Shown one piece after another: positions 1 through 19,937 of a DNA stretch of 64,000 bases. The DNA is from Populus alba (taxonomy: Eukaryota; Streptophyta; Magnoliopsida; Malpighiales; Salicaceae). Every line of letters begins with the position of its first letter. Within the stretch, counting starts at the first letter, position 1. The notes under the pieces were generated by a model. That model saw nothing but the letters and a program-made list of their open reading frames with translations. It was not told where the DNA came from and did not search any database. The DNA is taken from positions 16,126,169 to 16,190,168 of the forward strand of contig NC_133288.1 in assembly GCF_005239225.2 (NCBI RefSeq), read 5' to 3'. A program made the translations under genes and the position numbers.

Positions 1-372
1 TCGTAAGAAGTATGTGAGCTGGCCAAGATCTTTTATATAGAAAGTTGCATGTAAGAGCCATTAAAGCATAGTAATCAAACCATAGATAATGCCATTAATG
101 ATAATATCATCCACATAAATCAAGAGAAGGACTATACATGACGCAGACATGTGAAAAAAGAGAGAAGAATCATATTGACTTTGTGAAAAACTGAAGTAAA
201 AAAGTGTATTGTGAAACTTTTCAAACCAAGCTCGAAGCGCCTGCTTGAGCCCATATAGAAAATGCTTTAGCTTATAGACATCATGAGGAGAATAAGTAGT
301 CACACCAGAGGGAAGCTTTATGTAAATCTCTTCTTGCAGATCAACATGAAGAAAGACATTCTTCATATCTAT
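1..372 (-). pseudogene. Ty1/copia reverse transcriptase fragment (downstream half of the split RT)
   Basis: The minus-strand reading gives a copia-type RT: MKNVFLH, a YKLKHFLYGLKQ-like stretch, then the catalytic YVDD motif, and at the window edge an out-of-phase KDLGQLTYFL segment. The main frame is open over 61-405 (its last 33 bases lie in the gypsy LTR) and breaks just after YVDD, so at least one frameshift is present. The element continues past position 1. Its upstream RT part lies at 12239 and beyond; the two halves are separated by the gypsy element at 373-12238. The family assignment is firm. The copy is dead. Confidence 0.9.
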
Positions 373-491
373 TGACACGACCAAAAGCTTGATGTCTTTT
401 CCCAAGTGCAGGAGTGTCGAAGTAATAAATAACCCAGCAAGACCGGGGTCGAACCACAGAGAGGTTAATTGTATAAATTATAAATAACAAG

Positions 492-2116: not shown

Positions 2117-3355
2117 CACCCCCCAACCAGCTTATTACTAGTCCCTAGTAATCTAAAGCGTTAAAATAGAGAAACAATTTGCAAGTATTACAAAGCAAGG
2201 CATTCATCATTCAACTTCTATCAATCTATCCAGATAAATAAACTCTCATTAAATTTATATTACTGCTTCATACTTCTTAAACAAGATATTAATAAACCTT
2301 CTTTTTATGTGCTCAATATATGAAAACATAGATGATGGGGCTTTTGTTGGAAGAAAACAATATTATGTTCAAATGTTTAAGGTGAACTTCCTTGGGTTGA
2401 GATTATTATTATTATTACTTTTTTTTATTTATTTATTTATTAATATACACATACAACTTAAAACACAATGTATCTTTAACCCATGTAACGAGTTTTAGGC
2501 TAATGACTCCCAGACCAGTTGGTCTTAGGGCATTAGGTGTTGAGACACCCCTACGAGCTTAACAACTCGGGTTGCAGATACTGATACGTAGATAGTGCAA
2601 TATTTGATTTCCTTAAGCTTTTCTCCTTAACCCATGTAACAAGCTTTGGGCCAATAGCTCCCAAGTCAGTTGACTTTAGGGTATTAGATGTTAAAACACC
2701 CCTTCGGGCTTAATTGCTTAGGTTAGGGAGGCTACGAAACCAAACTTATCTACGTTTTTATTATCATCAATATTATCATCATTTTTTTTTTTTTGCAAAT
2801 TATATACTATCCCTTACCCTTAGTTGTTACCTTCAACAAAAGAACATAAATAATGTAATAATCCAATGTGCAACCCTACAATCATATGTTAAAGTGTGTG
2901 TGTGTGAAAATGAAGGTTTAATAATACTTGTTAAATGAGTATAGGAGCATAATTAAGTGATAATAATGCGAGAGTTTGTAAACCTGAATATTTCAAGAAG
3001 TATTCTAATAGGCCTTGTTATGAATATTGCAAATAACCATTAGAAAATTTTTACTACGATGCGTCTCAAGAATACCTCTTTACTCTGCCATCCTAGTAAT
3101 AACAGTTTTGCCAAATGGTTTTTTTTTTTTAAAAAAACAACAGTTAATTGGTTAGTTTTTTTTTTTTAAAAACTACTACCCTCTCCCCCCAACCAAAACG
3201 AGACATTGTCCTCAATGTCCTAAGGTAGAAAGATAGAGTAAAAAAGACATTACCTGAAACAACGAACAATGATAAACCTGAAACACACTTAAACAAATAT
3301 AAGAAGTAACAAAACAAAATAATATGCTATTAATAAAACCAAAAGACACAAAGTT
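2117..3355 (-). other. Gypsy 3' non-coding region with polypurine tract and a duplicated 96-bp motif
   Basis: The pyrimidine run next to the 3' LTR (2117-2125) is the complement of the polypurine tract that primes plus-strand synthesis. Two imperfect copies of a roughly 96-bp block lie at 2478-2573 and 2629-2724. Both start aacccatgtaac and share a ctccca, ttagggtatta and acacccct order. The rest is AT-rich with T-runs (2419-2427, 2781-2794, 3120-3130, 3160-3170). I see no gene here. Confidence 0.75.
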
Positions 3356-4036
3356 TCACAGATGAAGGCTCAAATCTAATCTAAGCTTTTTACGGCTTTT
3401 CTTAGTTGACCAATTTAGGCGAATCATGCAAGGATCAATGACAGGGATGAAAGATTGTAGTTGGTCAATCAATTGTTCAGCAGTAGCAGCAGAGATTATG
3501 ATTTGTCGTGCCGAAGATGTTAGAAATTCCTGTTCCACAGCTTGATCAAGGAAAGACAACAACTTATCATAAAAACCATTAACATTTAACAAACCTATAG
3601 GTTTATGGTGAATGTGCAGTTGGGCCCAAGATGAAATATGAAAGATCTCTTCTAATGTGCCTAGACCACCTGGTAAGGCAATGAAGGCATCAGCATGGTT
3701 AAACATGGTATTCAGTCGGTCAGACATTGTTGGGACCTGTAGTTCCTCTCCAATTGTTTTTCCAATGATGTCCCCATTTGCTAAAGCTTTGGGGACAACC
3801 CCCAAAACTTGACTGCCTCCTAAAAATGCAGCCATTGAAACACCTCCTAAAAATGCAGCCATTGAAACACCTCCCATTAACCCAAGGCTGCCTCCCCCAT
3901 ACACTAAATGAATCTTTCTCTCAGCTAGTACCTGACCAAGATGATTTGCTGATTCTAAAAACTCTTTTTCTTTCCCAGGACTGGATCCACCGAAAACATA
4001 AATATTTTTTATGTGATGACTTGAGGAACCTGCCAT
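3356..4036 (-). CDS. LOG-type cytokinin riboside 5'-monophosphate phosphoribohydrolase carried by the retrotransposon
   Basis: This intact 226-aa frame starts at ATG 4036. LOG enzymes cut the N6-modified AMP of cytokinin nucleotides to release the active base in one step, in cytosol and nucleus. The hallmarks are visible: YVFGGSSPG near residue 13, VYGGGSLGLMGG near 45, the conserved Arg in MSDRLNTM near 105, and the nucleotide/catalytic motif PGGLGTLEE near 122 with its Glu kept. The family is usually about 210-220 aa; the extra length is a 9-aa in-frame duplication (GGVSMAAFL twice, near residues 56-73). Host LOG genes normally have several introns; none is present here, which suggests capture through an RNA copy. 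The ORF lies downstream of integrase in the same sense as pol. No stop or shift is present. Activity is inferred from residue conservation only. Confidence 0.88.
   Translation of the reverse strand: MAGSSSHHIKNIYVFGGSSPGKEKEFLESANHLGQVLAERKIHLVYGGGSLGLMGGVSMAAFLGGVSMAAFLGGSQVLGVVPKALANGDIIGKTIGEELQVPTMSDRLNTMFNHADAFIALPGGLGTLEEIFHISSWAQLHIHHKPIGLLNVNGFYDKLLSFLDQAVEQEFLTSSARQIIISAATAEQLIDQLQSFIPVIDPCMIRLNWSTKKSRKKLRLDLSLHL
3816..3869 (-). repeat. 27-bp in-frame tandem duplication inside the LOG-like ORF
   Basis: Two identical 27-bp units (3816-3842 and 3843-3869) encode GGVSMAAFL twice, just after the conserved GLMG turn. The identity of the units suggests a recent event. It would lengthen a loop or helix next to the nucleotide-binding site without shifting the frame. 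Confidence 0.95.
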
Positions 4037-4102
4037 TTCTACACACTTCTATATTTGATGAATGTATGGGATGAGTAGAAATGAAGGGAAGGAAGAGAAG
4101 AA

Positions 4103-4108
4103 TTTATA
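4103..4108 (-). promoter_or_regulatory. Putative TATA box of the LOG-like ORF
   Basis: The minus strand reads CTATAAAT here, 67 bases before the ATG at 4036. A C/T-rich leader (4070-4102, the plant Y-patch type) follows. This is the spacing of a normal plant pol II core promoter, so the ORF may be transcribed separately from the LTR transcript. Confidence 0.55.
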
Positions 4109-4278
4109 GATGAAAAAGTGAAAATGCAATCATACCACCTACATGTAGGTCAGCTGTAGTCTCACACTCTCTCTCTTTATTTATTTATTTATTTTGACAA
4201 ATCATGTATGTACAGGTAGTTGTGATTGTGGCTCACATCTTCCCTTGGTTTTACGTCCAAGAACGGCTTAAACGCCCT

Positions 4279-4827
4279 CTATGGGTCGGGGATAAGCTTC
4301 CCATCCAGTTTTCTTAAAAACTGGCAAACAGGGTCTTTTTTAGTCAGATTCCCAAGACTAAGTCGATCATGTTCTTTATGGAATTGTGGCCATAAATCAT
4401 GAATTACACGATGCACATCTCCACTAGGATGCGTCTCAAGGGTCAACAAAAGATTATCTAAAGACCCCTTACTCAGGCCATCCTTAATGAATTGTATTTT
4501 ATCTTCACGGTTTACAGATACCATTCCTAAAGAACGACATGTCACATTACAAGTCCATCTGGCACATCTGTGACAGACTTTCAGTCGTTTTGCTCGACGT
4601 TTCTTTGCAAAAGTGCTTTTACCTGTTCCAGGCATGTGTGAAATGAAAGAATTGGAGGACTCACCTGATAATCGGACCTTTGCTTCAATTAGCCAGCGAA
4701 TATCTTCAAGAATTTCATGGTTCATTAACAACCTCAATCTTTCACACCTAGCACGGTAAATTTTTGTAATCGCATTTTGAGGCAGAGCGGGAAAATACTT
4801 TTTCAATTTTTCAAGAGTGGTGTCCAT
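4279..4827 (-). CDS. Unrecognised 182-aa protein with a Cys cluster, retrotransposon cargo
   Basis: This frame is intact from ATG 4827 (MDTTLEKLKK) to a stop at 4279; it is also open upstream to 4857 without an ATG. I do not recognise a family. Visible features: an N-terminal, probably helical part; a stretch HMPGTGKSTFAKKRR that resembles a P-loop but lacks its first Gly and any obvious Walker B; a basic patch; then CHRCARWTCNVTC (C-x2-C-x4-C-x3-C), which could bind one zinc; and an acidic helical C-terminal half with a DLWPQFHKEHDR stretch. It lies between integrase (stop 5026) and the LOG-like ORF (ATG 4036), on the same strand as both. Its position matches where Athila elements carry an env-like ORF, but I see no signal peptide or membrane segment. 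Whether it is viral-type accessory or a captured host gene is open. Confidence 0.7.
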   Translation of the reverse strand: MDTTLEKLKKYFPALPQNAITKIYRARCERLRLLMNHEILEDIRWLIEAKVRLSGESSNSFISHMPGTGKSTFAKKRRAKRLKVCHRCARWTCNVTCRSLGMVSVNREDKIQFIKDGLSKGSLDNLLLTLETHPSGDVHRVIHDLWPQFHKEHDRLSLGNLTKKDPVCQFLRKLDGKLIPDP

Positions 4828-4887
4828 TTTCAAATGAGAATTGGATGAGAGATTCAAAGAAAGAAGAAAGAGCAGAGAATTTCACAA

Positions 4888-5025: not shown

Positions 5026-6780
5026 TCAATCTTTATATACAGGATCACTCAATTCAGTAGAGTCATTTTCAACTGAAAAATTATCAAAATAAACTTTCAA
5101 CCGATGCCCATTTACCTTGAAAACATTGCCATTCTTTGGATTCTCGATATCACAGGCCCCATATAGATACACATGTTTCACAATAAAAGGACCGCTCCAT
5201 CTGGATCTTAGTTTTCCAGGAAATAAATGGAGTCGAGAATTATAAAGCAAGACTTTTTGACCAACATTGAATGTTTTTCTCAGTATTTTCTTGTCATGAA
5301 ACTCTTTGATTCTTGCTTTATGAATTCTTGAATTGTCATATGCATCATTTCTAATTTCCTCAAGCTCATTTATTTGCAATTTTCGCAGCTGACTAACATC
5401 ATCAATGTTTGAATTGAAAGCTTTAATAGCCCAATAAGCTTTATGTTCAATTTCCACAGGCAAGTGACAAAGTTTTCCATAGACTAGTCTATAAGGTGAC
5501 ATACCTAATGATGTTTTATATGCAGTTCGATAAGCCCAAAGTGCATTATTAAGTCTTAAAGACCAGTCTTTCCGATTAGGGTTCACCGTTTTCTCCAAGA
5601 TCTGTTTGATCTTCCTATTAGCAAGCTCTACTTGTCCACTTGTCTGAGGGTGATAAGGGGTGGCAACTTTGTGTGTGATTCCATATTTCTTCATTAAAGA
5701 AACAAATGGCTTGTTGCAGAAATGTGTTCCACCATCACTTATAATGGCTCGAGGAATTCCAAATCGACTCAAAATATTGTCTTTCAAAAACTTTATCACT
5801 GTTTTGTGATCATTGTTTCGACTTGGAATTGCCTCTATCCATTTTGAAACATAATCTACTGCGACTAATATATACACGAAACCAAATGATGGAGGAAATG
5901 GACCCATGAAATCTATACCCCAACAGTCAAAGATCTCAATGACAAGAATAGGATTTAAAGGCATCATGTGACGTTTTGAAATAGATCCCAACTTTTGACA
6001 ATTTTCACAAGTCTTGCAGAATGCATGTGAGTCTTTGAACATGGTGGGCCAATAAAATCCACTTTGTAAGATTTTTGCAGTAGTCTTTCTTGATGAGAAA
6101 TGACCCCCACATGCCTCAGAATGACAAAATTTAATGACACTACTTACCTCATTGTCAGGAATGCATCTTCGAAATATTTGATCAGGACAATATTTGAATA
6201 AATAAGGGTCATCCCAATAAAAGTTCTTCACTTTGTTCAAGAACTTTCTTTTGTCTTGGGTACTCCAATGAGCTGACAATTGTCCTGAAACAAGAAAATT
6301 AACAATATTAGCAAACCAAGGCATCATAGAAACGGAAAATAAAGATTCATCGGGAAAGTAGTCATCGATTGGTGTGATGTCAGATTTCGAATCTGTTGTC
6401 AATCTTGACAAATGATCTGCAACAATATTTTCGGTGTCTTTCTTGTCTTTGATTGTGATATCAAATTCTTGAAGTAACAAAATCCACTGCACCAATCTAG
6501 CCTTAGAATCTTTCTTAGAAAGAAGATATTTCAATGCTGCATGATCACTAAAAACAACAACAGGTGAGCCAACAAGATAAGATCTGAATTTATCACAAGC
6601 AAATACTACTGCAAGTAATTCTTTTTCAGTGGTGGTGTAATTCATTTGAGCACTATTTAAAGTTTTACTTGCATAGTAAATCACATAAGGTTTCTTATCT
6701 TTTCTTTGTCCCAAGACAGCACCAACAACATAATCACTAGCGTCACACATTATTTCAAAAGGTAATGACCAATCAGGAGG
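5026..6780 (-). pseudogene. Gypsy pol: RNase H and integrase portion
   Basis: The frame is open from 6780 to the stop at 5026. RNase H shows [18 protein letters not shown] and the [12 protein letters not shown] aspartate. Integrase follows with an H-H-C-C zinc domain ([10 protein letters not shown] then CKTCENC), the catalytic core [17 protein letters not shown] and a Glu in VELANRKIK, then the C-terminal GPFIVKHV and [10 protein letters not shown] region typical of this branch. The domains look complete. A TAA at 6781-6783 and a frameshift near 6870 separate this part from RT, so this copy cannot make a full polyprotein. Confidence 0.93.
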
Positions 6781-6869
6781 TTAAATGACAGGAGCAGAAG
6801 TAAGCAAGTTTTTAAGTTTAACAAAGGCTTCTTCACAATATTCAGTCCATTCAAAAATATTATCCTTTG

Positions 6870-7985
6870 TTAGAAGTTACTCAAGGGCTTAGATATTACA
6901 CTAAAATCTTTGATGAACCTTCTGTAAAAACCAGCATGTCCTAAGAATGATCTAACATCCTTAACAGACTTTGGTGTTGGTAAGTTGGCAATTAACTCAA
7001 TTTTAGATTTGTCAACCTCAATTCCTTTTGATGAAACAATGTGACCAAGTACAATGTCGTTTGTTACCATAAAATGACATTTTTCCCAATTCAGTACAAG
7101 ATTCTTCTCTTCACACCTGCTCAAAACCTTTTCTAAGTTAGTCAAACAATCATCAAATGAATCACCAAAAACAGAAAAATCATCCATAAAAATCTCAAGA
7201 AAATGTTCAACCATATCACTGAATATGCTAAGCATGTATCTTTGAAACGTGGCTGGTGCATTACATAATCCAAAAGGCATCCTTCGATATGCAAAAGTAC
7301 CAAATAGACATGTGAAAGTAGTCTTCTCTTGATCTTCCAATGCAATTTCAATTTGATTGTAACCTGAATAGCCATCTAGGAAACAATAAAATTCATGACC
7401 TGCAACTCTTTCTAGGATTTGATCCATGAAAGGTAAAGGAAAATGATCTTTTCTAGTCATAGAATTAAGTTTCCTATAGTCAATGCACATGCGCCAACCA
7501 GTAACAGTCCTAGTTGGAATTAACTCATTTTTCTCATTTGTTATCACAGTAACTCTAGAATTTTTGGGTACAACTTGGGTAGGACTTACCCATTTGCTGT
7601 CAGAAATAGGATAAATGATTCCATTATCTAGAAGCTTAATGACTTCATTTTTCACTACTTCTTTCATATTAGGATTAAGCCTTCGTTGCATTTCTCTAGA
7701 GGGTTTAGCATTTTCCTCCAAATAAATCTTGTGTGTGCAAATCAAAGGGTTAATTCCTTTTATGTCAGTTATGGTCCATCCTAATGCATTTTTGTGCGTT
7801 TTCAAAATCTGTAATAACTTACCTTCTTGATGTGCATTAAGTGTGGAAGAGATTATTACCAGAAAAGTTTCATTTTCTCCCAAAAATGAGTATTTGAGAT
7901 TAAATGGTAACGGCTTCAATTCAGGTTTTGGTGGTTGAACACTTGAGGGTATGAGCTCAATTGATCGTGATGGCAATTCTTCAAT
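6870..7985 (-). pseudogene. Gypsy pol: reverse transcriptase portion
   Basis: The segment continues in the gag-protease frame after a TAA at 7986-7988. RT motifs in order: VDYRKLN-type CIDYRKLNSMTRKDHFPLP, FLDGYSGYNQI, TFTCLFGTFAYRRMPFGL, NAPATFQR, the catalytic IFMDDFSVFG (F-M-D-D) and FLGHAGFYRRFIKDF. It ends at 6870-6872 where a lost base turns SNL into SNF plus a stop. Catalytic residues are intact, so the damage is recent. Confidence 0.93.
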
Positions 7986-9899
7986 TTATGGTCTCCAATT
8001 GCATGCCTTTGATTCCTGAAAGTAGACCATTTGCAAATCATCAGATTCATCAATCTCAGTTTCACTAGAAGTGGTTTGAAATTGATCATAAACTAATTTT
8101 TCAATAAAGTCCACTTCTTGTAAATCATTATCATCTCCAGGTTGCTTGTAAATATTGAAAATATTCATCTCCAATGTCATGTTTCCAAATGATAGCTTCA
8201 TCAGTCCATTCCTACAATTAATCAATGCATTAGAAGTGGCAAGAAATGGACGTCCTAAAATGACAGGAATTGAATTACATGCTTCAACAGGTTGTGTATC
8301 CAAGACAACAAAATCTACAGGGTAAATGAATTTATCGACTTGTACTAACACATCTTCAACTATTCCTCTAGGCACTTTTACAGATCTATCAGCAAGTAAA
8401 AGAGTTACAGAGGTTGGTTTTAACTCACCTAGATTGAGACTCTGAAAAACTGAATATGGAAGTAAATTCACACTAGCTCCAAGATCAAGTAAGGCTCTTT
8501 CAATTTTATGTTCTCCAATAAAGCAAGATATTGTAGGACAACCAGGGTCTTTATATTTCAAAGCATTATTGTTCTGAAGAATGGCACTTACTTGTTCGGC
8601 TAAAAAGGCTTTCTTTTTCACATTCAGTTTTCTCTTCACAGTGCACAAATCTTTCAAAAATTTAGCATATGAAGGAACCTGTTTAATAGCATCCAACAAA
8701 GGTATATTGATCCTTACCTGTTTGAAAGTTTCAAAGATTTCAGAGTTGTGATTGACTTTCCTTTGTTTGGTCATGGCATGAGGAAATGGAAGTGCTGGCG
8801 GGGAATCATCCTTCTCTTTGCAATGTTCAGGTTCAACCCATTCCTTACCCTCAGAGATAGACTCATCATCTTTCTCACAAGGTTTAAGAATGGGTTTTTC
8901 AATAACTTTACCACTACGAAGAGTGATGACTGATTTGACTTGATCCATGTGTTGGCTTCCAGAACTACTTGCATTTGCATTGTATTGCCCCTTTGGATTT
9001 TGTTGTGGTTGAGAAGGAAACTTACCTTTCTCTTGAAAACTGATAGCAGTTGTTAATTTTGCAAGAGCATCTTTAAAATCTGTCATGCTTTGAGAAAGTT
9101 GAGTGTTGATTGTCTCCTGCTTTTCAATGAATGCATGCAATGTTTCCTCAAGATTTCTTCTAGGAGGTGGAGCATAAGGAGGTGCATATCCATGAGAATT
9201 TTGAAAATTATGGTGTGCTTGAAACGGTGGTTGTGAAGTTTGTGCATTTTTGCTATCACTCTTCCAACTGAAATTTGGGTGATTTCTCCAACCAGGGTTA
9301 TACATTTGTAAGTATGGGTTATGGTTGGGTCTTTGGAAATTGTTTAAAGCATGGGCTTGTTCATGGAGGCATTCCTTAAAAGAAGGCAAAGTTGGACAAT
9401 CATTTGTTGAGTGTTCCTTGGTTTCACAGATTTGACACATAATGTCTTGAACAAATTTTAATTGATCATTCTTTTTCAATTCTAGTGCCTCGACTTTTCT
9501 AGCTAAAGATGCAAACTTGGCTTGGAGATCATGATCTTCCCTAAGGTTGTGCATACCTCCACTAGATGTATGAGGTTGAGTTTTACTTGGTGCCTCATAA
9601 GTACCTGTGGTGTCCCAATTTTGAGCATTTTCGGCTAGCAAGTCTAGGTACTCCATTGCTTCATTAGGGTCTTTATCTTCGAAAGTTTCATTGCACATCA
9701 ATTCAACCATTTGCCTATCTCTAGGTGTTAAACCTTCATAAAAATATGAAACCAATCTCCATGTTTCAAAACCATGATGAGGGCAAGTATTAAGCAAATC
9801 CCGATACCTATCCCAACATTGGTAAAATGTTTCTCCTGGTTTTTGAGTGAAAGTGATGATTTGTCTTTTGAAAGAGTTTGTTCTGTGAGATGGAAAAAA
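7986..9899 (-). pseudogene. Gypsy gag C-terminal part, zinc knuckle and protease
   Basis: The frame is open from about 9899 to the TAA at 7986. It contains the gag segment FTQKPGETFYQCWDRYRDLL, one CCHC knuckle (CQICETKEHSTNDC), a low-complexity linker rich in Gln, Asn and Pro, the VITLRSGK motif typical of Athila/Tat elements, and an aspartic protease with ALLDLGASVNLLP near the middle and VILGRPFLAT further on. The downstream RT frame is the same frame, so gag and pol were one continuous ORF before the stop arose. Confidence 0.92.
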
Positions 9900-9912: not shown

Positions 9913-10278
9913 TTATTGTTGCATTTCATCCCAAGCACGAATAGATCCTGGTCTCAAATTTTGTAGCCATGTTTTAGCTTTATCTTTTAATGAAAAAGGA
10001 AAAAGCTTTAATTGAATGGTGTTCATGCTACAATTTGAGTCATTATAGGTATTACAGACCTCCTCAAATTCCCTTAAATGCAAGTATGGATTTTCTAAGT
10101 CTAAGCCATGAAAAGATGGTAAGAGTTGAATAATGTCTGGCTTAAAATTAAAATGAGATGCATCAGGAGGGAAAACTATGCATGAGGGTGCACTTGTTCT
10201 TGTGGGATTCATGTGGTTTCTAAGTGTTCTCATACGGTTATTCTCATTATGAAGTGATTGATTATCTTCTTCGGCCAT
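9913..10278 (-). pseudogene. Gypsy gag N-terminal part
   Basis: From the likely ATG at 10278 (MAEEDNQSL) the frame runs to a TAA at 9913-9915. It contains the Retrotrans_gag-type segment with PSFHGLDLENPYLHLREFEEVC and FPFSLKDKAKTWLQNL. The frame is open upstream to 10404, but that part is Phe-rich and non-gag-like, so the start at 10278 is preferred. A second lesion follows: a run of seven A (9894-9900, plus strand) is one base too long and shifts the frame into the next part of gag. Confidence 0.88.
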
Positions 10279-10472
10279 ATTTTCTGAAAATGATGAGGAT
10301 ACCCTAGAAAGTCGACCACTTAATGTACGTGACCAAACTCGCATGCACGTGTAAAAAGAGAATAAAAGGAAGAAAAGAAAAGAGAAGAAAAAGAAACAAA
10401 ACAAAACAAAGAAAAAAAGTTAAGTAAAAAGAGAAAATAAATTAAATATTATAATTTATACAAGAATTTACC

Positions 10473-10490
10473 TCCCCGGCAACGGCGCCA
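10473..10490 (-). other. Primer-binding site, tRNA-Asp type
   Basis: Read on the minus strand, TGGCGCCGTTGCCGGGGA lies six bases inside the 5' LTR. It is complementary to the 3' end of plant tRNA-Asp (…CCGGCAACGGCGCCA), the primer I associate with Athila-type elements. Confidence 0.85.
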
Positions 10491-10496
10491 AAAACT

Positions 10497-12238
10497 TGAC
10501 ACGACCAAAAGCTTGATGTCTTTTCCCAAGTACAGGAGTGTCAAAGTAATAAATAACCCGGCAAGACTGGGGTCGAACCACAGAGAGGTTAATTGTATAA
10601 ATTATAAATAACAAGACAATAACAACAACAACAACAACAATAATAACAATAATAATAATTATTATACTCAGTACGTGGCGTTGTTATACCTGAGAATGAT
10701 CTAAAGATCGGGTCACAGGTTTCCAGCCTATATACTGAGTTTATGAAAAGATCAAAAGATATATATTATATAATATAAACAAAATGTAAATAATTATAAT
10801 AATAATAATGATAATAATAATAATAACAGAAGATGAAGAAATTAATGAGAACTTTGAGATAAAAGATTAACGTAAGGATTAAACAATGATAAAAACAAAT
10901 GTCAAGGTTAGAGGATCCACTAATGGTACTTCAAACAAGTATAATATAAACTCTTATTACTCAAATGGAAATCACACATAAAGGAGGTTCTCATCAGATT
11001 ATAAATTGTTAACATGATTACATTAGTTATTTTATTCGAATAAAGCTAATACTTGTAAATGTTGGCAGGCATTCATGATTATAACTTATTGTTATCAAAA
11101 CAAATCAAGTCCCTTTCATAGCTCAGGTGTCGGTTATACCATACAGTATGGGCTATGAAAGTACCAAGTATTTGTTGTACCAAGTGTTATACAACATAAA
11201 TCTAGATTAACCATTTAACAAGCAAAGTATTAAAAGTGAACAAGATAACAAATATAAAACATGTTAGTATCCAACGTTAAGGTCCATGTTAAATTTATAT
11301 TATACTTATTCTTATACCATTAGTGTACCCTTTTCACCTTGACATAATTAACTTAGCTAAAAATAATGAAAGAAAGAAACATAGATGAACAAGATAAGAA
11401 CATAAATGAGAAAGAAGTTAACTAAGTAAAGGAAAGAAAATGAAGTGCATAAACTTGATATTAATGAAAGCAAAACATAAGCAATACAAAGAGAGAAAGC
11501 AAGAGTATGATCTTGATCTGGAAACCAAGATGCCTTAATACATGGTAAGTGCCTCCTTTTATAGGCCAAAATTTAGAACTATTGATTTGTTGACTAATTG
11601 ATGAGTGGGTGGCCACATCTTGACTTTGGTGACAATCCTTATCTTCTTGTATGAACAAAACGTCATTGCTAACATCATAATTTGCCCAGAATCCTCAAGA
11701 ATGTTCTAGGAAATTGTCTCAGCTTTCCAACAAAAAACAGATGAGGTCATTTGGACTTCTAGAACTCAAGATATGGGCTGAAAACTAAATAGTGTCTGGG
11801 CTGCAGGACAGCTTCGGACTTCTTCGTTGTTCCTTCAATTTGGACTTCAAAACGGCCTTCTTAGATCTTGGGCTCCCATGAAAGTTGTAGAACTTTGTCT
11901 TACCTTTCCATCCATATAAAATGGACCTAAATCCGAGATCTAGAGCTCCGAATATGATCCAATTACCGAGCAATGTTCTGGTTTGGACTGCACCGACATC
12001 TCTTTTCTAAGTTTGGCCATCTCTTTGTCCTTTCACTTTCAATACTTAAACTCATCAATCAATCCTTTTATTTAAGTATTAGGCCTGCATTTAAGATGAA
12101 CATTTACCATAAATTAAGGTATCTTATAATATCAAACTTGCTATTATAAAACATGCTTTAGTTAAGGAGTTATTGATACTTCAAGTGCAAAATGATGATA
12201 TAAAACCTTGATAAACATGCACTTTTAAGTACTAATCA
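10497..12238 (-). repeat. 5' LTR of the gypsy element
   Basis: This 1742-bp LTR is the partner of 373-2116. The CAA/TAA microsatellite is shorter here. Most differences from the 3' LTR are transitions, spread evenly. The outer end is next to tccat (12239-12243), the right copy of the target duplication. Confidence 0.95.
11557..11563 (-). promoter_or_regulatory. LTR TATA box
   Basis: The minus strand reads GGCCTATAAAAGGAGG, a strong TATA box, about 675 bases from the U3 end at 12238. It would drive the genomic transcript of the gypsy element. Confidence 0.6.
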
Positions 12239-12560
12239 TCCATCTAATATAGTTTCCACGAATGCGAAGCGGCAATAGCTAAAATGGTTTGAACTATGGT
12301 CATTTTGGTAACATGAGCAAATGTCTTCTCATAATCAATCCCATATTCCTACTTGTTATCTAGAGCTACGAGGTGAGCTTTGTATCGATCTAAAAAGCCA
12401 TCTGAATGAAGTTTTACAAAGAAGACCCATTTACTCCCAATAAGTTTGACTATAGGAGAACAAGGAACAATATCCTAAATGTGATTCTTCTCAAGTGCTT
12501 GAAGTTCTATTTGCACTGCATGTTACCAACACTCATATTGCATGGCTTGTTTGTAGCTAG
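12239..12560 (-). pseudogene. Copia RT upstream half
   Basis: Minus-strand translation in the three frames gives the usual region before RT motif A: GYDYEKTFAHVTK-like and an IAIAAS-like stretch close to the insertion. The last codons before the gypsy element read KLY, a stop, then MD. On the other side of the gypsy element the frame resumes at D-M-K-N, so the target site is the YQMD/VKNAF segment of RT. Confidence 0.82.
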
Positions 12561-18062: not shown

Positions 18063-19937
18063 TCAACTAGTACGCAAGCAGTACTCAGATGAATGCCCTG
18101 CATCCCACTCTATTTCTCCACATGCCCCAAGGACTTTTGCAGAGATGTAATCATCCACCTGAATACCTTCTGCCTGCATCCTATACATGAGCTTCAAAGC
18201 CTCTTGGCAGAGCCCATTCCTTACATAGCCCATAATCATAGCCCTCCAAGTAACCAAATTCCGCTCTGGCATACTGTCAAAAACTTGAATTGCCTCTGAT
18301 ACATACCCACATCTGGCATACATATGAATTAAAGCACTACCTACAAACACATTAGATGAGGCAGGGGTCTTATTGGCAGAGGAGTGGATCAATTTCCCTT
18401 GCAGAACAGTTTCAAGATTGGCACATGCTTTCAAAGCTGATGAATAAGTAAATGAATTGGGTTCCACACCTTCCTCCATCATTTCTTTCAAAAATTCAAG
18501 GGCCTCAGACTCATGCCCAAGACATGCATGACCAGAAATTATGGCAGTCCATGAGACAACATCTCTGAAAGGCATTTGTTGCAGGACTTTTGAAGCAGTA
18601 TGGGACTCCCCACATTTACAGTAGAACCACACAAGAGTACTTCCTAAGTATTCATTTGATTGGCTGCAATTCTTAATGATTTGTGCATGAACTTCCCTCC
18701 CAGCAAGCAATGCCCCAATCAAGCCACATGCCCTGAGCATACTTACAATGGTCAAGTTGTTAGAAACTACCCGTCGTCTCTTCATTATTCGAAAAAGACA
18801 TATAGCCTCCTCGCCAAGCCCCTTCCTAGCATACCCTGCTATAATGGATGTCCATGTAACCGTGTTCCTTCTCCTCATCCCATTGAAAACTTTTGAAGAA
18901 TCTGAAACCTCTCCACATTTAGCATACATATCCACCAAAGAAGTCCCAACAAAAACATCATCTTTATACATCTTCTTCACTATAGCCCCATGTATTTGTT
19001 TCCCAAACTTCAATGCCTTCTCCTCTCCACATGCCTTCAAAATGCCAGATGCAGTAAACCCATTAGGCAAAAACCCACCATTCAACATTTGTGTGAACAT
19101 CCCGAAAGCCTCTTCACAGCGCCCTTGTTGGGAGCAAGCAGTAATCATTGTTGTCCAAGAAACCACGTCCCGCTCAACCATCCGATCAAACACACAAAAT
19201 GCACTCTTCAAATCACCACATTGGACATAGAAATAAACAACAGCACTATCCACGATCAAATTCCTCCAGTTACCCTTTACAACACGAGCATGGACTTGTC
19301 TTCCTAACTCAAAATCTAATCTTCTACTACACAAATTCAACACACACACAAAAGTCTTGCTATTTGGTACAACCCCATCCTTTATGGCCTGGCTAAAAAA
19401 ACTTAAGGCTTCATCATCCAAACCAAACTTAAAGTACCCATTTATCATTGCCGTCCAACTAACAACATTTCGTTCAGGCATTGCATCAAACACCTTTTGC
19501 GCCTCAAGTAACTCCCCTAATTTCAAATACCCACTTACCAAATTATTATTGACATAAGTGCCCGAGTCTCTCAAACACTTTAAGAAAACCGCGTGTATTC
19601 TTCTAATGTCTTTTACCCTGTAACAAGACTGCAGCCAAAGTGCAAGCAAACTAGAGTCAACAAATTCACTTGCTGATTCTGTTTTTGAAAAATCAAGGCC
19701 TGGGGTTCCTTTATATCCGGGAGAATTTGTGGTTGCTGGGTATTCAAAATAAGAAGCAGAAGGTGAATCACTAGTGCTCTTGCAAGAGAAACAATGAGAA
19801 TTAGAGTAATTATTATTGTTTCCTTTTTTTGAAGCGCGTTTGTGTTTTGTAAAGGACGATGGCGGTTGGATGTTGAAAGGAGAAGATTGTTGGAGGAGAG
19901 ACGTGTTTGGTAAAACACATGCCGTTAATGAGAGCAT
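18063..19937 (-). CDS. Pentatricopeptide repeat protein, PLS type, probably plastid-targeted
   Basis: This is an intronless 624-aa frame from ATG 19937. PPR proteins bind single organellar RNAs and direct editing, cleavage or stabilisation. The first roughly 95 residues are rich in Ser, Asn, Thr and Pro with few acids, like a transit peptide. From about residue 95 PPR units follow to near the end: NVVSWTAMINGYFKFGL, DVVSWTTMITACSQQG, NTVTWTSIIAGYARKG, DVVSWTAIISGHACLG and NLVTWRAMIMGYVRNG mark P/L/S triplets about 100 residues apart. The protein ends in LGACGEIEWDAGHSSEYCL with no E or DYW domain, so any editing would need a partner. Length and C-terminus recall Arabidopsis At4g18520 (PDM1/SEL1), from memory and unverified. 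The gene is divergent from the next one. Confidence 0.93.
   Translation of the reverse strand: MLSLTACVLPNTSLLQQSSPFNIQPPSSFTKHKRASKKGNNNNYSNSHCFSCKSTSDSPSASYFEYPATTNSPGYKGTPGLDFSKTESASEFVDSSLLALWLQSCYRVKDIRRIHAVFLKCLRDSGTYVNNNLVSGYLKLGELLEAQKVFDAMPERNVVSWTAMINGYFKFGLDDEALSFFSQAIKDGVVPNSKTFVCVLNLCSRRLDFELGRQVHARVVKGNWRNLIVDSAVVYFYVQCGDLKSAFCVFDRMVERDVVSWTTMITACSQQGRCEEAFGMFTQMLNGGFLPNGFTASGILKACGEEKALKFGKQIHGAIVKKMYKDDVFVGTSLVDMYAKCGEVSDSSKVFNGMRRRNTVTWTSIIAGYARKGLGEEAICLFRIMKRRRVVSNNLTIVSMLRACGLIGALLAGREVHAQIIKNCSQSNEYLGSTLVWFYCKCGESHTASKVLQQMPFRDVVSWTAIISGHACLGHESEALEFLKEMMEEGVEPNSFTYSSALKACANLETVLQGKLIHSSANKTPASSNVFVGSALIHMYARCGYVSEAIQVFDSMPERNLVTWRAMIMGYVRNGLCQEALKLMYRMQAEGIQVDDYISAKVLGACGEIEWDAGHSSEYCLRTS

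Follow-up and report, generated by a model that had tools for sequence, protein, structure and literature searches.

The window analysed here, a stretch of 64,000 nucleotides of Populus alba (Malpighiales; contig NC_133288.1), contains on its minus strand a Ty3/gypsy element that sits inside a copia element, at a copia reverse-transcriptase fragment. The two long terminal repeats (LTRs; 373-2116 and 10497-12238) share 97.5% identity across 1,749 aligned columns, and they accompany a primer-binding site, a polypurine tract (PPT) and the protease, reverse transcriptase (RT), RNase H and integrase order of a Ty3/gypsy LTR retrotransposon. Read 5' to 3', the element carries gag in two ORFs, then protease, RT and RNase H-integrase, followed by an ORF at 4279-4857 and finally a LOG-type ORF at 3356-4036, laid out in the window as follows.

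61..405, minus strand: fragment of a copia reverse transcriptase at the edge of the insertion (PF07727, 3.6e-20); its ORF enters the LTR by a few codons
373..2116, minus strand: 3' LTR, 1,744 bp (TG...CA ends; LTR-LTR alignment)
2117-2128, minus strand: PPT-like purine tract (sequence)
3356..4036, minus strand: LOG ORF, 226 aa in the window copy (PF03641, TIGR00730)
3394..4183, minus strand: LOG cassette, deleted in 6/20 pol-less copies (blastn against the window and junction read-out)
4102..4109, minus strand: TATA-like CTATAAAT, 66-73 nt upstream of the LOG ATG (sequence)
4279..4857, minus strand: viral-NABP-like ORF, 182 aa counted from 4827 (PF01623, PF05515)
5026..6750, minus strand: RNase H to integrase ORF (PF17917, PF17919, PF17921, PF00665)
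6870..7976, minus strand: reverse transcriptase ORF (PF00078, 1.5e-28)
7986..9797, minus strand: gag/protease ORF (PF13650 Asp_protease_2, 1.5e-5)
9913..10404, minus strand: 5' portion of gag, in a different frame (ORF list; PF03732 at 22.5 bits, slightly under the 24.1-bit cut-off)
10471..10490, minus strand: primer-binding site (sequence adjoining the 5' LTR)
10497..12238, minus strand: 5' LTR (LTR-LTR alignment)

The 5-mers flanking the element, TCTAT (368-372) and TCCAT (12239-12243), agree at four of five positions and represent a possible target-site duplication. The primer-binding site is presumably of the tRNA-Asp type, as in Athila, and the element is termed Athila-like on the basis of this presumed type and the extra 3' ORFs. 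According to the ORF list, gag-pol of the window copy is broken up into four ORFs that do not all share a frame. Elsewhere in the window, a minus-strand ORF of 624 aa (18063-19937) encodes a pentatricopeptide-repeat protein and is apparently a host gene.

The profiles and the ORF map confirm the statement of an earlier note on this DNA that a LOG-family ORF lies between the integrase ORF and the 3' LTR on the pol strand. The ORF comprises 226 codons with an ATG start and no internal stops, and the LOG signature sought in profile searches is strong, with matches to PF03641 (Lysine_decarbox; Pfam, E 7e-38) and TIGR00730 (NCBIfam; 162.6 bits, cut-off 96.4). The profile scores are far above curated cut-offs. 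A chance ORF was rejected, and a host gene beside the element was ruled out because the LTRs enclose the LOG ORF and the arrangement repeats across copies. The two best relatives in the PDB are Arabidopsis At2g37210 (the best) and At5g11950, which we take to be LOG-type enzymes. Alignment to At2g37210 demonstrates that PGGLGTLEE, YGGG and the Arg preceding the motif, assumed here to be catalytic residues, are all retained, as the earlier note had also read. Amongst the window and 120 relatives, PGGLGTLEE is exact in 75/121 and the pattern M..R[LMH] occurs in 110/121. Family, motif and length (~217 aa) are those of plant LOG-type proteins, from which the poplar LOG differs in being element-borne, intron-free and present in very high copy number.

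The description of this gene as apparently intact overstates the case for the window copy, whose LOG ORF has grown to 678 nt by tandem duplication of 27 bp (GGVSMAAFL occurs two times, soon after the YGGG loop) and whose gag-pol is broken. The ORF measures 651 nt in 39 of 41 extracted copies, 654 nt in one and 678 nt in the window only, and the duplication, seen in 0/35 aligned relatives, is private to the window copy. The family LOG protein is 217 aa long, and the additional 9 aa are peculiar to the window. A LOG subfamily with a 248-aa open frame (L092, L095, L096) has its frame open further upstream, possibly with another start. The structure predicted for the window LOG from a shallow alignment is unusable (pLDDT 39.5). 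Upstream of the ATG, the TATA-like CTATAAAT is a possible internal promoter; each of its columns differs in <10% of 67 copies, and most adjacent columns are equally conserved.

The odds that the element LOG releases cytokinin are put at about even. Retention for some other hydrolase activity (e.g., on nucleoside monophosphates or nucleotide immune signals) appears improbable, given that both of the best solved relatives are At2g37210 and At5g11950 and that the motif residues are kept. Such an activity would nevertheless fit the broad matches to TIGR00730 and the SLOG cluster, as motifs cannot reveal cytokinin specificity, and it would fit the score of 104.5 bits against the cytokinin-specific equivalog NF058542 (CtkRMPhLog), which is under the cut-off of 300 but comes from a model meant for bacteria and archaea and is not decisive for plants.

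The ORF between integrase and LOG (4279-4857), absent from the earlier note, matches two viral families, PF01623 Carla_C4 (4.6e-6) and PF05515 Viral_NABP (6.3e-6), both above the gathering cut-off. Both families also match 12/12 members of an alignment of the window protein and 11 relatives at E <=0.01, a threshold distinct from the gathering cut-off that the window protein itself passes; the best E values among the 12 are 1.1e-8 and 1.5e-6, and only part of the protein is covered. Like the carlavirus/Betaflexivirus NABP (Carla_C4, Viral_NABP), the predicted protein has a cysteine cluster with a preceding basic stretch, whereas it is retroelement-encoded, is 182 aa long and has conserved flanks without viral match. 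A protein search returned 569 of 674 candidates at E 0.001, and the best 120 of these include named Populus proteins and a Xanthoceras sorbifolium protein of 71% identity. In two copies (L078 and L087) the NABP-like ORF breaks off near 4402, at almost the same base, and is followed by unrelated sequence, which in one of them includes a chromovirus-like integrase end. Viral contigs scanned with the LOG and with the NABP-like ORF yielded zero relatives of either. A transfer of the gene from virus to element (or the reverse) is possible. Alternatively, the ORF may be one of the usual 3' ORFs of Athila elements, from the env-like region, that has come to resemble the viral proteins by convergence on a zinc-binding cysteine cluster and a basic stretch. 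This explanation, to which somewhat less than an even chance is assigned, would suit the modest, partial matches and the poor confidence of a structure predicted from a shallow alignment (pLDDT 55.7), but it sits less easily with the recurrence of two viral Pfam families in every alignment member. A literature search of titles and the starts of abstracts found no description of a retrotransposon ORF of carlavirus-NABP type, and neither 'carlavirus' nor 'nucleic acid binding' occurs in the accessible part of PMC9289625.

The LOG ORF recurs in other copies of the element, a result on which the earlier note had made its proposal depend. A 29-nt LOG motif is found at 576 genome sites with <=2 mismatches (backward control, 0), a figure that counts motif sites and not whole LOG ORFs. 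In a search of the genome with the LOG protein, 150 of 1,776 candidates were scored, and all 150 match, 140 of them stop-free, although these best-scoring copies are a biased sample. In all 20 copies picked by LOG score, the NABP-like ORF, whole or in part, stands next to LOG. The stretch from RT to LOG is uninterrupted in eight of them; ten share a deletion (6454-8013) that removes the entire RT ORF, nine of these also being without mid-integrase, and L018 and L023 have other deletions. The mean difference from the window in nine pol-less copies is 13.9% in the integrase remnant, 2.1% in LOG, 2.8% in NABP and 4.7% in gag, compared with 4.4% in the LTR and 4.7% in the 3' stretch, both non-coding. 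The family is a mosaic of recombining subfamilies, as illustrated by L028, in which a pol-less 5' part with a diverged remnant is joined to window-like integrase and a pol-bearing 3' part, and the low divergence of pol-less copies is therefore not necessarily a sign of selection in them. Neither of two queries recovered the parental host LOG gene among the scored candidates. P0097 (named LOGL10, from P. trichocarpa; best P. alba match 85%) gave 150 uninterrupted, near-full-length matches with no exon pattern (150/1,750 scored), and a 75-aa query taken from a Xanthoceras protein gave 150 uninterrupted matches of 61-65% (150/1,172 scored); host LOG exons may be present in the unscored remainder.

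Two LOG-blind samples were hand-picked, with earlier-fetched copies skipped: 20 of 40 scored integrase-remnant places (1,294 candidates), which are pol-less copies, and 20 of 40 scored RT places (805 candidates). The LOG ORF is open in 2/20 and NABP in 17/20 of the remnant-picked copies, and the corresponding figures for the RT-picked copies are 5/20 and 8/20. In the RT-picked set, three pieces hold neither gene (L075, L079, L086), LOG is partial in L069 and L072 and lacking from the fetched stretch of L078, L082 and L087, and L074 ends before NABP. Six pol-less copies (L049, L050, L054, L061, L063, L067) share one LOG deletion that keeps the last ~12 codons, and 12 of the 14 that retain LOG are without a full open LOG frame. 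Amongst these 14, NABP alone is open in nine and LOG alone in none (P 0.004), while the 12 RT-picked copies with LOG split 3 to 3. The LOG lesions are mostly private, many being 1-bp indels, and likely reflect decay after insertion or assembly error; their excess over NABP lesions points to a lesser importance of LOG where pol is missing. LOG is not essential, as pol-less derivatives spread without it.

Such losses would be expected of a passive passenger, i.e., a LOG cDNA captured once and hitchhiking ever since, with a low dN/dS that merely echoes selection on gag-pol (through young copies, recombination and protein-ranked sampling). The clear mosaicism of the subfamilies (e.g., L028) and the bias of LOG-ranked samples lend this explanation further weight. 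However, shared variants of a passenger should be neutral, and in LOG-blind copies they are not. Full LOG regions were available from 14/20 integrase-remnant loci and 12/20 RT loci, making 26, or 27 with the window, and omega was mutation-corrected with a spectrum from the non-coding spacers of fetched copies. LOG variants found in >=3 of the 27 copies have an omega of 0.22 (17 synonymous, 10 nonsynonymous; P 9e-5 versus neutral), doubletons one of 0.55 (P 0.14) and singletons one of 0.68 (P 0.049), with a difference between shared and singleton variants (Fisher P 0.014). The neutrality of the LOG singletons is thus doubtful. Taken singly, the LOG-blind subsets fall short of significance in the contrast of shared and singleton variants: the pol-less subset alone has 0.18 for shared variants (P 0.015) and 0.54 for singletons (P 0.039), with a Fisher P of 0.27, and the RT subset plus window has 0.27 for shared variants (P 0.0042) and 0.82 for singletons (P 0.25), with a Fisher P of 0.058. 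NABP behaves similarly in 34/40 LOG-blind loci (shared 0.21, singletons 0.83, Fisher P 0.002). When all fetched copies are included, LOG-picked ones among them, omega for shared variants and singletons is 0.26 and 0.87 in LOG and 0.27 and 1.11 in NABP. In this larger set NABP doubletons display the reverse trend (2.18; 5 synonymous, 31 nonsynonymous), and four NABP stop variants are common to >=3 copies, which may reflect broken copies that multiplied or repeated mutation at one site. Between eight divergent LOG copies, chosen by protein score, and seven window-type copies, dN/dS is 0.27 at dS 0.18 (56 pairs). Low omega arising solely from LOG-ranked sampling is ruled out, since the LOG-blind loci are also low.

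The integrase remnants provide an internal control. In eight to nine LOG-picked pol-less copies, two remnant regions have dN/dS values of 0.69 and 1.69, as opposed to 0.22 for LOG, 0.27 for NABP and 0.16 for gag, although the picking of these copies by LOG score biases the LOG value downward. The same two regions give 0.14 and 0.32 in pol-bearing copies and 0.35 and 0.55 between pol-less and pol-bearing copies, so that part of the divergence arose under constraint. The remnants in pol-less copies thus do look relaxed, which is a second point against a passenger, whereas recombination between subfamilies may have imported the low omega of the pol-less copies. Overall, hitchhiking of a single captured cDNA is regarded as unlikely. 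The patterns of variation make it very probable that LOG and NABP were under purifying selection during amplification and under weaker constraint afterwards; with older variants constrained and recent ones less so, working versions of both genes appear to have been favoured while the family amplified. Older LOG variants are well under a dN/dS of 1, the value that the earlier note had named as fatal to its proposal, and a fresh accidental capture, which that note had left open, is disfavoured by the recurrence of the ORF, this mark of purifying selection and the strong profile signature.

The explanation preferred here, with a probability of roughly 0.6, is a high-copy Athila-like family with two selected accessory genes, a viral-type NABP and an intron-free LOG, the latter yielding cytokinin for the element. 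LOG would be made from a separate transcript (from its own promoter or a spliced RNA) and, in cells with an active element, would act on cytokinin ribotides to set the free hormone loose; this would favour cells that divide or resemble meristem and that supply the germ line. As for the NABP-like protein, it may bind element RNA or counter silencing, and LOG would help the element while staying non-essential. Cytokinin activation by the LOG protein to the element's advantage is a proposal. The earlier suggestion of an element that spreads a hormone-activating gene gains from recurrence and the mark of selection, but is tempered by the dispensability of LOG in pol-less derivatives and the damage to the window copy. 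A bolder version, in which a rosid retrotransposon lineage carries a two-gene kit for host manipulation (NABP, possibly silencing-suppressing, and LOG) that is maintained through selection acting on the element and raises cytokinin in transmitting cells, is speculative and probably too strong.

Accessory genes of this kind have precedents. In 2011, Steinbauerova reportedly described two Athila-like elements similar to LOGL4. An annotated Xanthoceras protein, P0254, consists of LOG, a gag-like stretch (51% over 51 aa to the window gag) and LOG again; Xanthoceras, like Citrus, belongs to the Sapindales. The accessible part of Alvarado-Marchena 2022 (PMC9289625) lists a YgdH/LOG domain for gypsy elements from Citrus sinensis, C. 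clementina and P. trichocarpa; as in P. alba, which shares its genus with the last of these, a LOG-type domain forms an extra ORF. Taken together with P0254, these cases suggest that LOG-bearing elements span the Sapindales and Malpighiales, the number of captures aside. Whereas the domain is only listed in that part of PMC9289625, the P. alba analysis adds abundance, selection, pol-less derivatives, a LOG-deleted form and the viral-type neighbour; the LOG domain in gypsy elements was already known, and the literature searched yielded no account of the viral-type partner. The same source describes orchid gypsy elements that carry an AlkB m6A demethylase, likewise an enzyme of host type that became established in a gypsy lineage, but one with shown RNA demethylase activity, unlike the poplar LOG, a predicted hormone enzyme known from sequence. 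In Arabidopsis, Athila elements are reported to recombine with one another (PMC2410132), a parallel to the poplar mosaic copies; LOG, unlike in the poplar family, is absent from the accessible description.

For P. trichocarpa, 13 LOG genes were counted in 2013 (PMC3866579). In addition to host genes, many LOG-like ORFs of the poplar genome belong to elements, and some of these are probably annotated as ordinary proteins, with P. alba P0003, P0044 and P0074 as candidates. If it is true that element-level selection keeps a hormone-activating enzyme, plant retrotransposons would act on host development in the manner of pathogens.
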